From positions 1-38,318 of IMG/VR virus record IMGVR_UViG_3300022744_000065: a DNA stretch of 38,318 nt; one strand, 5' to 3'. Positions 8,289-34,754 of this stretch are shown here, piece after piece (positions within the stretch are counted from its first letter, which is position 1; every line of letters begins with the position of its first letter). Both the position numbers and the translations under genes were made by a program. The DNA is from a virus. The notes under the pieces are model-generated. The model did not search any database. It saw only the letters and a list, made by a program, of their open reading frames with translations, and was not told the origin of the DNA.

Positions 8289-9089
8289 ATGTCAGCAAAC
8301 GCAGATAACTTACCGATTGAGGATGTATTCCCAGCAGAGGTATCGGAATCGACCCCGGTTGTAGAGGAGCCAGTAGCCCCGCCCGTTGTAGAAACACCGA
8401 AAGAGGAGCCGGTTGTACAGGATAAACAACCTCAGACCGCGCCACAAATCCCTAAATGGCGATTGGACGAAGTGCTTGAGCAGAACCGCGCCTTAAAAGC
8501 GCAGTTAGCCCAAGTCCCACACCAACCCCAACCACAATCCACGCCGTCAGCCCCGAAAGAGGAAGACTACCCGGATTGGGCGAGCTTTAACGCCGCTGTT
8601 GTTGCGCATACCGTGCAGCAAGAGTTGAAAAAGCACGAGCAGGCAACAAGTCAACAGCAGCAGTTGCGCCAACACCAAGAACGCTTGATGAAGGCCGACA
8701 GCACATGGGAAGAAAAGGTCTACGCCGAAACAGCAAAAGACCCGAATTTCCAGAAAGCGTTGATGGATGCTCCTACTCTTCGCCCAGAGCTTCAATTGGC
8801 TCTAAAGGAATCGGACGACCCTATTGCATTGGCGAGATTCTTAGCGGCTAACCCCGAGAAGATCATCTCAATGAATCGGATGTCTTTCGAGCAAGGAATC
8901 AGGGAATTGGGAAGAACGGAAGCGCGTCTGGCCACGGTAACAGCGGGACCGTCAAAAATCCCCGCTAAGCAAGCCCCCAACCTCGATCCGGTGGGAGGGG
9001 GAAACACGCCGCCACCAAAGAACCCGTATAGCCCGCAATCCTCAGAAGTGGATTACGTAGCGGCTACTCGGAGACTTCCAACGCGGTAA
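8289..9089 (+). CDS. Scaffolding protein (266 aa)
   Basis: Scaffold proteins guide coat assembly and leave the prohead. Its position between portal and coat, its acidic Pro/Val/Glu-rich disordered N-terminus (residues 10-55), a Gln-rich helical middle (about 100-150), and a basic C-terminal tail (ATRRLPTR) fit the P22-like scaffold class, whose basic C-terminus contacts coat. The motif EDYPDWASFNAAV is common to such proteins. It starts after GTGGAGG. Confidence 0.8.
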   Translation: MSANADNLPIEDVFPAEVSESTPVVEEPVAPPVVETPKEEPVVQDKQPQTAPQIPKWRLDEVLEQNRALKAQLAQVPHQPQPQSTPSAPKEEDYPDWASFNAAVVAHTVQQELKKHEQATSQQQQLRQHQERLMKADSTWEEKVYAETAKDPNFQKALMDAPTLRPELQLALKESDDPIALARFLAANPEKIISMNRMSFEQGIRELGRTEARLATVTAGPSKIPAKQAPNLDPVGGGNTPPPKNPYSPQSSEVDYVAATRRLPTR

Positions 9090-31291: not shown

Positions 31292-31609
31292 ATGAAAAAA
31301 TCAATCGTTAAAACCAAGCATAAAAAAGTTAAGCGGTATATCATCCGCACTTATTCGGCTGGTGTTTTTGCCGCAGAAATTATCAGCCGAAAAGGTGGTG
31401 AGGCTGAATTGAAAAACGCTCGCCGACTATGGTCATGGCAAGGTGCGGCAAGCCTTTCCGAAATGGCTGTCCGTGGGACATCAAAACCGAGCCAATGTAA
31501 ATTCCCGATTATCGTTCCGACTCAAACGGTCATCGGCGTGATCGAAGTCATCCCGATGACGGATGAAGCATGGGCCACAATCGAGGCGGTGCCAGTATGG
31601 ACGGTGTAG
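31292..31609 (+). CDS. Phage hypothetical protein, RTYSAGV type (105 aa)
   Basis: GGAGAG seven bases upstream supports the ATG at 31292 over in-frame starts at 31277 and 31271. The segments IIRTYSAGVFAAEI, NARRLWSWQGAASLSEMAVRG and VIEVIPMTDEAWATI are typical of a small conserved phage family often found beside a Gly-rich repeat gene, as here. Function unknown; it overlaps the repeat gene by 13 bases. Confidence 0.65.
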   Translation: MKKSIVKTKHKKVKRYIIRTYSAGVFAAEIISRKGGEAELKNARRLWSWQGAASLSEMAVRGTSKPSQCKFPIIVPTQTVIGVIEVIPMTDEAWATIEAVPVWTV

Positions 31610-31812
31610 TTATTGGCTCTGGCTATGGCGATGGCTATGGCGATGGCTCTGGCGATGGCTCTGGCGATGGCTCTGGCTCTGGCTATGGCGATGGCTCTGG
31701 CGATGGCTCTGGCTCTGGCTATGGCGATGGCTCTGGCTATGGCTCTGGCGATGGCTCTGGCGATGGCTCTGGCTATGGCTATGGCTCTGGCTATGGCGAT
31801 GGCTCTGGCTAA
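31597..31812 (+). CDS. Gly/Ser/Asp/Tyr repeat protein (71 aa)
   Basis: The ATG at 31597 follows GAGGCGG. After MDGVVIGSG, nearly every second residue is Gly, alternating with Ser, Asp or Tyr (units GSGDGSGYGDG). The coding DNA is a hexanucleotide repeat, GGC plus TCT, TAT or GAT. All three + frames are open across it, but only this frame gives the Gly-alternating sequence and has a site of its own. An elastic or ice-like surface repeat is possible, but no function is shown. Confidence 0.5.
   Translation: MDGVVIGSGYGDGYGDGSGDGSGDGSGSGYGDGSGDGSGSGYGDGSGYGSGDGSGDGSGYGYGSGYGDGSG
31612..31812 (+). repeat. Hexanucleotide GGC-NNN tandem repeat (about 33 units)
   Basis: GGC alternates with TCT, TAT or GAT for about 200 bases. 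The array is prone to slippage and length change. Confidence 0.85.
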
Positions 31813-31843
31813 AATTTAACCCATCGAAAAAGTCGAATAGTTC

Positions 31844-31870
31844 AAGGCCCCGTCACTGGGGCTTTCTTGT
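31844..31870 (+). terminator. Rho-independent terminator
   Basis: AAGGCCCC (31844-31851) pairs with GGGGCTTT (31858-31865) around GTCACT, then TCTTGTT. It ends the transcript carrying the Gly-repeat gene and stops just before the antisense tRNA. Confidence 0.75.
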
Positions 31871-31947
31871 TGGTGCTCCCTGATGGACTCGAACCACCAA
31901 CCCAACCCTTAGAACGGGCATGCTCTGATCCATTGAGCTAAGGGAGC
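31871..31947 (-). tRNA. tRNA-Arg (anticodon TCT), CCA encoded
   Basis: Read on the - strand: acceptor GCTCCCT/AGGGAGC, D-arm GCTC...GAGC, anticodon loop GTTCTAA, T-arm GGTGG-TTCGAGT-CCATC, discriminator A and an encoded CCA. The anticodon TCT reads AGA/AGG, codons common in this genome. The anticodon stem has one weak pair at its base. It is the only - strand gene besides HNH. Confidence 0.9.
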
Positions 31948-31953
31948 AAAATA

Positions 31954-31990
31954 AAAGCCCAGGGTAGTTAGAGCTACCCTGGGCTTTCTG
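31954..31990. terminator. Bidirectional terminator hairpin beside the tRNA 5' end
   Basis: AAAGCCCAGGGTAG (31954-31967) pairs perfectly with CTACCCTGGGCTTT (31974-31987). On + it is followed by CTG; on - by TTTTATTTT running straight into the tRNA's first base. In the - direction it lies immediately upstream of the tRNA. Confidence 0.75.
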
Positions 31991-32175
31991 TGAACCGATG
32001 AAGCCCCACATAGCAGGGAATATCGGCACCCGTTGTCATTTCAATATAACCCATTCCACCTATTCAAACAGGTTAAAAGATTTCTGAATAGGTCAAAGTT
32101 CCCTCGTATTTCTTTTAGTTCCCTGACTTCCCTACCTACCCACATCACCCCATACCCAGACAGAAAACAAATGAC
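31988..32175. other. Non-coding stretch: dyad and pyrimidine-rich segment
   Basis: No gene found. It contains an 8-bp dyad CCTATTCA...TGAATAGG (32059-32066, 32085-32092), which may be an operator or weak hairpin, and three TTCCCT repeats (32099, 32119, 32128) in a CT-rich stretch. Nothing else is visible up to the promoter. Confidence 0.5.
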
Positions 32176-32204
32176 TTGATTTCCTGATTTGTTTTTGGTA
32201 ATGT
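32176..32204 (+). promoter_or_regulatory. Candidate replication-gene promoter
   Basis: TTGATT (32176-32181), 17 bases, and TAATGT (32199-32204) with an extended -10 (TGG). It would start RNA near 32211-32213, exactly at the foot of the long hairpin. Confidence 0.55.
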
Positions 32205-32212
32205 TTGGGTAT

Positions 32213-32287
32213 GCGACGAGTTTCCGAATCAGCTTTCCCCCTCAATGGTCCTTTGACAGTACGCGCCCGGAACTCGTCGCGGTTTTT
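32213..32287 (+). terminator. Long attenuator-like terminator in the initiator leader
   Basis: GCGACGAGTTTCCG (32213-32226) pairs with CGGAACTCGTCGC (32268-32280), 13 bp with one bulged T, then GGTTTTT. The 41-base loop holds one arm of a second inverted repeat. It could either end a short RNA of about 75 bases or act as an attenuator for the initiator gene. Confidence 0.65.
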
Positions 32288-32327
32288 CGTTTGCGCTATT
32301 TGGCTGTCAATGGATCATTCAGGGTGG
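32239..32327 (+). promoter_or_regulatory. 21-bp imperfect inverted repeat covering the initiator Shine-Dalgarno site
   Basis: Arm 32239-32259 (begins CCCTCAATGG, ends TTTGACAG) matches the reverse complement of arm 32304-32324 (begins CTGTCAATGG, ends CATTCAGGG) at 18 of 21 positions, with one further G-T pair. The second arm ends in AGGG of the ribosome binding site AGGGTGG (32321-32327). It interlocks with the terminator hairpin. Confidence 0.7.
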
Positions 32328-32334
32328 AAACAGC

Positions 32335-32931
32335 ATGGCTGAAATTTCCTTTGTAAAAATCGACATAGCTAGGCTTTGCAGAGAAGTCTACCGAATCCAA
32401 GACGACCGTGATTTAGGCCGATGGATGAGAAGCCTCACCGAGTCTCTTGTTTTGCGTGATTCATCCCTCAACGAATACGGCGCATCGCTTTTGGCTGAGG
32501 TTGAGAAATACCGCGAAATTGACGCAAAAAGAAAGAAAAAATCCAAGGATTCCGTGGATTCCAAGGATTCCGCGGATTCCTCTAACAAACAAACAAACAA
32601 ACAAACAAACAAGAAGATTCCCGCCGCGCGGGAAAGAGACCAAATTTGGGATTCAGTTGTGAACCTATTTTTCCAAGATGGGGTTCCCAAGTCTGCAAAT
32701 TCTCGGATCGGAAAAATCGTAGCCGACCTGAAATCAATCGACGCTACCCCAGAGCAAATCCGAACCAGGACCGAAAACATGCGCCGGACGGATTGGGGGC
32801 GGTCAGCTGGCCCCGAGGGATTGGTCAAGCAATGGGCGAATTTGAGGGGGTACGAAACGCCCAAACCTAGGCCATTTATCGAGCGTGACCCGAACGCGTA
32901 TGACCACACCCTAGAGTTAGACGACGCATGA
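32335..32931 (+). CDS. Replication initiator / helicase-loader-type protein (198 aa)
   Basis: The C-terminal domain, with SANSRIGKIVADLKSIDATPEQIRTRTENMRRTDWG and GPEGLVKQWANL, is the form seen in phage replication (initiator or helicase-loader) proteins. The N-terminal helical part is joined by a low-complexity Ser/Asp/Lys/Asn/Thr/Gln linker (about residues 65-95). The linker DNA contains the candidate origin repeats. The next gene is a primase-helicase, overlapping by four bases. The start follows AGGGTGG, which lies in the leader inverted repeat. Confidence 0.75.
   Translation: MAEISFVKIDIARLCREVYRIQDDRDLGRWMRSLTESLVLRDSSLNEYGASLLAEVEKYREIDAKRKKKSKDSVDSKDSADSSNKQTNKQTNKKIPAARERDQIWDSVVNLFFQDGVPKSANSRIGKIVADLKSIDATPEQIRTRTENMRRTDWGRSAGPEGLVKQWANLRGYETPKPRPFIERDPNAYDHTLELDDA
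32545..32611 (+). repeat. Candidate replication origin: four 9-bp iterons plus (AACA)7
   Basis: Four head-to-tail units AAGGATTCC, GTGGATTCC, AAGGATTCC, GCGGATTCC (32545-32580) are followed by seven AACA units (32584-32611), an A-rich tract. Both lie within the initiator coding sequence. This mirrors the lambda origin, where iterons and an A/T-rich tract lie inside gene O. No experimental evidence. Confidence 0.6.
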
Positions 32932-34754
32932 CGCCCGCAAAGCTACCTCCAAGCGTTTATCAGGAGCTTATTAGGGTTGGGCTTTCAGTTATCCCAACGG
33001 ATGCCTACAAGGCACCTCAAATCGGTTCATGGAGGGAGTACCAAAAGACCCCAGCGACCCGAGAAGTTGCGGGCAAGTGGTCGGGTAATGGGGTGGGCGT
33101 TCTTTGCGGTCAAGCTTCCAACGGGCTTTTTTGCATCGACATCGACGAAAAAAACGACCCAAAAAAGACGATTTACAAGGATTATACCGACCTTGTGATG
33201 GAGACGGCCCCGGAATTGATGGGGGCTATGGTCATTCAGGCGACCAAAAACGGCGGATACCACCTGATCGCTCGATGTTCGGAAATAATCAAAAACCAAA
33301 AGCTGGCCCACTTCGCTGGCGTGAAAGAGGCGGTAATCGAAACCAGGGGAGAAGGCGGGTACTTTTGCGCGGCTCCTACCCCAGGCTATAGCCTTTTGCA
33401 AGGGTCATTGGACCTAATCGACACAGTAACCCCAGAGGAATTGAAAATACTCCTTGACTGTGCGAGGGCATTTAACGAGGTCCACCAAGAGGAAAAGAAC
33501 TTTTCCCCAATTGCCAAACCAGCTTTTGAAACGCAGGGAGATACCCCCCTTGATGACTATGACAATCGAACCCAATACGAAGAGACTATCGAGCTTTTAA
33601 AAAAGCATGGGTGGACCGTCAGGGCTAGGAGAGGAGACGCATACCAACTTTGTAGGCCGGGGAAAAAGCAAGGCATATCGGCGACTTTGAATCACGTCCC
33701 TGGTCGGTTCTATTGCTTTTCGACTTCCACCGAATTCAAAAGCGAAGGGGTTTACAAGCAAAGCGCGGTCTATGCCATGCTTGAACATGGTGGACGGTAT
33801 GGAGACGCCGCCAAGGCTCTTTATTCGATGGGTTTCGGTGCCCGCCATACATCGGCAAAGCCTTTGCAGGTTACGGCGACACAGCCCGAGCAACCAAAAG
33901 AACCAATACCCGATTTTATAGCCCAAATGGAAACCCTATACCGGGATGGAATGCGTAAAGGTATTTCCACGGGATGGCCTTCACTTGATAGGCTCTACAT
34001 GGTTGTAAAGGGGCAGCTAAACATTTTCACGGGTATACCTTCACATGGGAAATCTGAATTTACCGATGCGCTAATGGTAAACCTTTCGCAGACAAAGGGA
34101 TGGCATTGGGTGGTGTACTCGCCTGAAAATTATCCAATATCAATGCACGGAAGAAAGTTATTAGAAAAACATACTGGGAAAAATATGCTTGCCGGAAATG
34201 ATAGGCTTACTCTTGAAGAATTCCGAAAAGGGGCGGCATGGGTTAACGAGCATTTTACTTTCCTAGATGGCTTAGATGAGGATATGACGCTTGACACGAT
34301 TTTCCAAATGGTCGAGAAAATAAAAAGCGTTAAACCGGTAGACGGTTTAATCATCGACCCATGGAATGAGCTTGAATCATTTAGGCCAGAGCGAATGACG
34401 GAAACCGAATATATTGGAAATTGCTTGAAGCGTACGCGAATGTTTGCAAGAAAGCATGATATTTATACCGCTATCGTAGCGCATCCATTCAAGCTAAGGA
34501 AAGATATAAAAACAGGTGAAACGCCTATCCCTAACCTCTATGACATTTCAGGTTCGGCGCATTGGTATAACAAAGCAGACAATGGAATCGCGGTACACAG
34601 GGACTTTCAAAATTCAGTCACAAAAATTTGCGTGCTTAAGGTTAAATTCAAATACTACGGTAGCCCCGGTGAAGTGGATTTGAAGTACAACCCAACAAGC
34701 GGCAGATATTATGAACCAACAACCCAGGAATCATTTTTAGGAGATGCAAGATGA
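32928..34754 (+). CDS. Prim-Pol primase / RecA-fold helicase fusion (608 aa)
   Basis: The N-terminal domain is primase-polymerase-like: IPTDAYKAPQIGSWREYQ, WSGNGVGVLCGQASNGL, then CIDIDEKND with D71 and D73 in the catalytic DxD position. The C-terminal domain is DnaB/RecA-type: Walker A GIPSHGKS (about 369-376) and Walker B LIIDPWNE (about 474-481). It would prime and unwind at the fork. Phages of this size often carry the two activities in one protein. It overlaps the initiator gene by four bases. Confidence 0.88.
   Translation: MTPAKLPPSVYQELIRVGLSVIPTDAYKAPQIGSWREYQKTPATREVAGKWSGNGVGVLCGQASNGLFCIDIDEKNDPKKTIYKDYTDLVMETAPELMGAMVIQATKNGGYHLIARCSEIIKNQKLAHFAGVKEAVIETRGEGGYFCAAPTPGYSLLQGSLDLIDTVTPEELKILLDCARAFNEVHQEEKNFSPIAKPAFETQGDTPLDDYDNRTQYEETIELLKKHGWTVRARRGDAYQLCRPGKKQGISATLNHVPGRFYCFSTSTEFKSEGVYKQSAVYAMLEHGGRYGDAAKALYSMGFGARHTSAKPLQVTATQPEQPKEPIPDFIAQMETLYRDGMRKGISTGWPSLDRLYMVVKGQLNIFTGIPSHGKSEFTDALMVNLSQTKGWHWVVYSPENYPISMHGRKLLEKHTGKNMLAGNDRLTLEEFRKGAAWVNEHFTFLDGLDEDMTLDTIFQMVEKIKSVKPVDGLIIDPWNELESFRPERMTETEYIGNCLKRTRMFARKHDIYTAIVAHPFKLRKDIKTGETPIPNLYDISGSAHWYNKADNGIAVHRDFQNSVTKICVLKVKFKYYGSPGEVDLKYNPTSGRYYEPTTQESFLGDAR

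Follow-up and report, generated by a model that had tools for sequence, protein, structure and literature searches.

Control of early replication in phages is for the most part attributed to repressor and activator proteins. The pT181 and pIP501 attenuators set an antiterminator against a terminator in the leader of a replication gene, with antisense RNA feeding back on copy number, and the C4 antisense RNA of P1 and P7 has complementarity to the ribosome-binding region that lies downstream in the same operon. C4 RNAs have a table entry in PMC2864571. According to PMC4825925, the P4 CI RNA prematurely terminates the replication genes through seqA and seqC, and IsrK of Gifsy-1 is a 77-nt terminated RNA that acts in trans, the read-through RNA being inactive through a long cis helix.

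We analysed a 38,318-base IMG/VR virus record (the window, that is, the whole stretch of DNA), whose head genes (portal, scaffold, major head, head closure) are P22-like and whose small terminase is Sf6-like. The leader of its replication operon contains two stems with their arms in the order A-B-A'-B' (Table 1). IsrK is the nearest tested precedent for this form: by analogy, the leader RNA of the window would also exist in a short terminated version of about that size, with alternative structures in one RNA, and the middle of the short RNA would pair with downstream sequence, making the read-through mRNA inactive. However, IsrK controls an antirepressor via orf45 and not a replication operon. 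P4 CI likewise has an untranslated replication-gene leader with an internal segment complementary to another leader segment, as B and B' are within the leader of the organiser-primpol operon here, and premature termination is its off state. CI differs in being a processed, trans-acting RNA; in the phage described here, no integrase or repressor was matched among the 36 distinct window proteins scanned (a subset of the ORFs), so that lysogenic immunity finds no support here.

Like C4, the window leader would be a structured RNA able to pair with the ribosome-binding region of the operon it heads (B with the Shine-Dalgarno region), but it differs in sequence and stems. The C4 covariance model (RF01695) matched neither the window nor 15 loci, and Rfam gave no relevant match at gathering threshold in the window and these loci, nor at E up to 10 in 32000-32500. 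With pT181 and pIP501 it would have in common a replication gene leader that sets antiterminator against terminator, and feedback on copy number by antisense RNA; their alternative stems, however, share a strand, whereas the stems here share none and would exclude each other by crossing. A literature search by title and abstract found no such leader described in these phages, an absence that proves little since most subscription journals lie outside its coverage.

Crossing stems at the head of the replication operon

A and A' form 13 pairs with one bulged T and are followed by GG and then TTTTT. Of the 21 positions of B (32239-32259) and B' (32304-32324), 18 are Watson-Crick pairs, one is a G-U pair and two are mismatches; the helix is longer than first stated and reaches about the limits given in Table 1. 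The loop lengths are 9, 8 and 22. The sequence-only reading made before this analysis had placed the arms in this order and B' over the ribosome-binding site of the first gene, and direct reading found both as described, with AGGGTGGAA covered upstream of the start codon. Its 21-bp inverted repeat has correctly placed arms but contains the two mismatches and extends further. The name replication initiator, given to the first gene, reflects where the gene lies; neither Pfam nor PHROG gave a significant match for the 198-aa protein. No relatives of this protein were found from the single sequence and none in phage records; an alignment search gave only the one in L002.

A promoter at the foot of the first hairpin had been proposed as well and is the weaker point of that reading. 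Boxes seen by eye would put the RNA start at about 32211, but a consensus promoter scan of 31500-33500 found none. In several relatives, inspection by eye showed TTGAC/TTGCA and TATATT-like boxes spaced from A in much the same way. The inverted repeat CATACCCAGACA/TGTTTGGGTATG (32151-32162 with 32202-32213) spans the candidate promoter and touches the foot of A. An open frame runs from ATG 32211, the expected transcript start, to TGA 32339-32341 and overlaps the ATG of the first gene; short frames are also present in the leaders of L193 and L272. A leader-peptide mechanism as a general rule was dropped, as by eye an ATG is missing from the 5' end of leaders such as L280, L306 and L310.

Table 1. 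Leader elements and first genes of the replication operon in the window
Feature	Position	Strand	Remarks
Candidate sigma-70-like promoter, TTGATT (32176-32181)-17 nt-TAATGT (32199-32204)	32176..32204	+	by eye
A, 5' arm of first stem	32213..32226	+	GCGACGAGTTTCCG; compensatory changes compared with L343, L002, L178
B, complementary segment displayed in A-A' loop	32234..32259	+	extended helix
A', 3' arm of first stem	32268..32280	+	CGGAACTCGTCGC; direct reading and alignment
T5 run after A' (possible terminator tail)	32283..32287	+	not common to L343 or L002
B', partner of B over Shine-Dalgarno region AGGGTGGAA	32304..32329	+	upstream of ATG 32335
First gene of replication operon, 198 aa	32335..32931	+	helicase loader/organiser-like by position only; homologue in L002
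Prim-Pol plus DnaB-like helicase protein, 608 aa	32928..34754	+	protein-level matches

The A-B-A'-B' pattern in the window is real and above chance. With 71.5, the top-scoring crossing pair of the leader is beyond all 2000 dinucleotide shuffles; taken as single helices, B-B' (41.5) was reached in none of them and A-A' (30) in 28. On the whole plus strand of the window, the crossing score was tied only at a tandem-repeat ORF at 31.6 kb. A terminator scan does not list A-A', because it permits loops of 3-8 only. A DNA blast of the leader region against phage records gave no match.

The tandem-repeat ORF (31613-31819; 12-bp repeats, Gly/Ser/Tyr/Asp-rich) lies shortly upstream of the leader, and different repeat ORFs lie close to the module in relatives (L003 6161-6787, NWNSG; L193 2290-2643, CGMG; L197 1877-2095). 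A tRNA-Arg (TCT) gene at 31871-31947 on the minus strand points away from the replication operon.

Related leaders in other phages

Full-length relatives were collected from Prim-Pol protein scans and alignments. Where they share the primase-polymerase/helicase operon, crossing stems with unrelated B sequences were found in their leaders. Ten leaders, the window's among them, were examined singly: for eight, at most 8 of 2000 shuffles were as good (none for L002, L003, L193 and L197, 5 for L178, 6 for L004 and 8 for L272) and two were borderline (L190 with 77 and L188 with 103), counts that are not a blind test since the starts were set by hand after the leaders had been viewed, the L190 start being one base off. 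L189 was left out of this test, and its crossing stems were seen by eye only. By eye, transcripts of the window, L343, L002, L193 and L272 would be expected to begin at A or close to it. L003, at first taken as a permuted order, has the common order. In the related leaders L306 3297-3378 and L310 3204-3287 the B arms are identical and changes in A are compensated, as if A were the specificity element (by eye).

In most relatives the U-run sits after B', directly before the gene, which makes B-B' the terminator and A-A' the competing stem. A separate class with the T-run after A' (window, L190, L189, L294) was mostly withdrawn: a strict scan put L294 in the common class, and L190 and L189 were placed there by eye only.

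The window portal led to L340, a 36,983-base record with an 86% identical portal and 94% identity over the part of the large terminase compared. Neither the two replication proteins of the window nor its leader DNA found a match in this record. In this structural relative (L343 in what follows), crossing stems precede an HNH gene (start L343:8939) at the head of a different early operon (A 8819-8828/A' 8885-8894; B 8847-8867/B' 8914-8934; loop lengths 5, 6 and 19). Its crossing score was reached in none of 500 shuffles, and B' covers the Shine-Dalgarno region as in the window, leaving 4 bases to the start codon. The A stems can be aligned and differ by compensatory changes (window GCGACGAG/CTCGTCGC; L343 GCGAAGAGG/CCTCTTCGC; L002 GCGAAGTAGG/CCTACTTCGC), which extend to L178; B is unrelated among the window, L343 and L002. 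No close relative has the window's own B, and covariation of B is thus established in the Flavobacterium leaders only (below). The T5 run is absent after A' in L343 and L002, and so the comparison does not back A-A' as a terminator hairpin, as it had been called: stem and T5 are present in the window, but most relatives would terminate at B-B'.

This bears on a rather unlikely though serious alternative, a trans-acting antisense RNA of the P4 CI, P1 c4 or Gifsy-1 IsrK type. The RNA would be about 75 nt long and end at the T5 after A', and its loop segment B would pair with B' of the read-through mRNA. The T5 run, the position of B inside the A-A' loop and that of B' over the Shine-Dalgarno region all fit, and a precedent exists in the 77-nt terminated IsrK, whose read-through form pairs over about 30 nt with sequence further downstream and is inactive while the short form acts in trans (PMC4825925). 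Against it stand the missing T5 in L343 and L002, the use of B-B' as terminator in the strict class of leaders described next, which would hide B, and the lack of C4, integrase and repressor matches given above.

Systematic scans started from a table of 70 loci (69 of 80 primpol loci plus L197, the others being short or duplicated). After addition of the window, loci were removed, six for the 2.5-kb scan (65 loci), nine for the strict and looser scans (62) and ten for the automatic-start scan. For the strict class, that is, a terminator with a competing stem, a leader had to score 46 or more, lie beside a start codon and have a T-run behind the B' arm of its crossing stems. The class was found upstream of the primpol gene at 13 of 62 loci, leaving 49 without it. 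It was found at 6 of 564 other genes of the same loci and at 5 of 1251 genes of control contigs, which were not random but chosen because 14 bases of the A arm occur in them exactly, and in shuffles at 3 of 3970 and 3 of 2502. The window itself falls outside this class, its T-run coming after A' and not B'. A looser scan gave a weaker enrichment (31/230 genes vs 39/525 at score 45). With automatic operon starts, an optional T-run and p<=0.02, 14 of 52 primpol, 9 of 186 other and 8 of 343 control leaders were positive; 28 of the 52 primpol leaders showed no structure, partly from wrong gene starts, which affected the window, L190, L267, L283 and L310 and bias against our reading there. Ungapped rules thus detect the leader in a minority of Prim-Pol phages. 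In helicase-only relatives (52 of loci L200-L262) it was found at 2 of 52 loci compared with 4 of 532 other genes, so it goes with Prim-Pol phages more than with the helicase alone. Strong crossing leaders in helicase-only relatives are L239 1901-2061 (84.5) and L255 3009-3101 (60.5), and crossing stems also occur before non-replication genes of primpol phages (L302 129-230 and 9103-9239; L271 6352-6450; L281 6782-6884).

Within 2.5 kb upstream, with the T-run after either stem and a score of 48, 13 of 65 loci were positive (shuffle average 0.7), compared with 4 of 65 on the reverse complement. This strand difference weighs against a function at the DNA level, with the inverted repeats as protein-binding sites or part of an origin. 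Complementarity by itself cannot separate RNA from DNA, and inverted repeats beside replication genes are common at origins, but A at the expected 5' end, the T-run after B' and the Shine-Dalgarno overlap are strand-specific RNA features, and we regard a DNA-level function as improbable.

Homologous leaders are present in the Flavobacterium phages hattifnatt9-1, morran9-1, snusmum9-1, mumin6-1, snusmum6-1 and elemoA_11-9C, and similar ones in Olleya Harreka_1 and Cellulophaga phi19:1 and phi19:3. The muminvirus leaders precede a small gene and a helicase gene, the other named-phage leaders a primase operon or replication protein. Named records negative for the tested leaders were L345, L346, L347, most of L348, L359 at 2501, L360 at 2292 and L362. 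In an alignment of the six Flavobacterium leaders (5 distinct rows; Olleya Harreka_1 left out, its A arm being misaligned), 98.1% of cells are paired, two B cells being non-standard pairs, and 6 of 21 pairs, three in A and three in B, show changes on both sides. Neither the paired percentage nor the covariation score was matched in any of 500 shuffles; 4 of 500 reached the number of both-sided pairs and 223 of 500 that of further pair types, and slid structures gave 0 or 1 both-sided pairs. The compensatory changes that the sequence-only reading had predicted for related phages were therefore found, for both helices in Flavobacterium and for the A stem in the window, L343, L002 and L178. A second crossing leader of hattifnatt9-1 (L349 1185-1255), with short stems, lies before the gp041 endonuclease gene and is not significant alone (47/200 and 56/200 shuffles as good in two runs).

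Terminator-like hairpins are frequent in phage DNA (7 found in our scan, 2.6 expected), which could suggest chance or an ordinary terminator without switching. The strict-class enrichment, the shuffles of the singly examined leaders and of L343 and the Flavobacterium covariation make this highly improbable.

A proposed two-state switch

We think it probable that the replication-operon leader is a two-state RNA switch, open with A-A' and closed with B-B', and most likely it acts co-transcriptionally. A-A' would close once A' is transcribed, before B' exists, and would hold B in its loop, so that the operon stays open. In the closed state, B-B' would bury the Shine-Dalgarno region of the first gene in the window and would form an intrinsic terminator just upstream of the gene in most relatives. 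The stems have no bases in common and yet would compete, because they cross. In forced folds, both states were predicted to be stable in 7 of 7 leaders, with A-A' available first. For the window the values were -33.3 for A-A' (-21.4 before B' is made), -42.3 for B-B' and -47.3 for the overall minimum; in L193, A-A' is the more stable state. A' overlaps B' or lies directly against it in L193, L197 and L272 (L3 of -3, 0 and 0), so there the stems should exclude each other. The crossing order, the folds and this contact support the earlier suggestion that the two stems compete.

Alternatively, the two stems would exist together in a stable aptamer- or ribozyme-like pseudoknot of the H type, for which A-B-A'-B' is the right order, and the loops of the window and L343 could permit partial B-B' pairing. 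However, the L3 values of L193, L197 and L272 should not span a stem of 11-15 bp, and no conserved unpaired core was seen across relatives (by eye), so we consider a pseudoknot improbable. As for a riboswitch aptamer, the leaders of the window, L343, L002 and L178 have no conserved loop sequence (by eye) and there was no Rfam match.

It counts against the proposed direction that in the window both stems are possibly off-signals, A-A' as terminator and B-B' as block. B' is transcribed after T5, and B-B' therefore cannot act in cis on termination at T5. The complementarity, its conservation across phages, the covariation of both helices in Flavobacterium phages, the position and the predicted energies are what the analysis shows; that the switch works in vivo, which way it turns and what triggers it we infer. 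We consider RNA the likeliest trigger: leaders transcribed earlier would accumulate with phage copy number, pair with new leaders and favour the closed state, and the outcome would be negative feedback on replication. Of the attenuator or RNA switch suggested before, the RNA element, the competing stems and the position at the operon head were retained, but the terminator stem is B-B' in most relatives.

That the fold is conserved while its sequences change suggests that early phage genes are turned on and off by a type of RNA switch not described before. A wider idea, which we offer as a long shot, is that the switch is widespread, with exclusion by topology only and the terminated leader feeding back in trans, as an RNA-only sensor of copy number or superinfection. 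If this were true, closed leaders would beget closed leaders, and a specificity code would lie in the A-stem sequences, whose paired bases change together from one phage to another on the same host. The leader has few conserved bases and is therefore missed by sequence-based family libraries, whereas a search for crossing complementarity detects it. The leader fold recurs and covaries in podovirus-like phages that are uncultured as well as in cultured phages of Flavobacterium, Cellulophaga and Olleya, and offers a candidate point of RNA control, open to testing, where replication or early operons begin.
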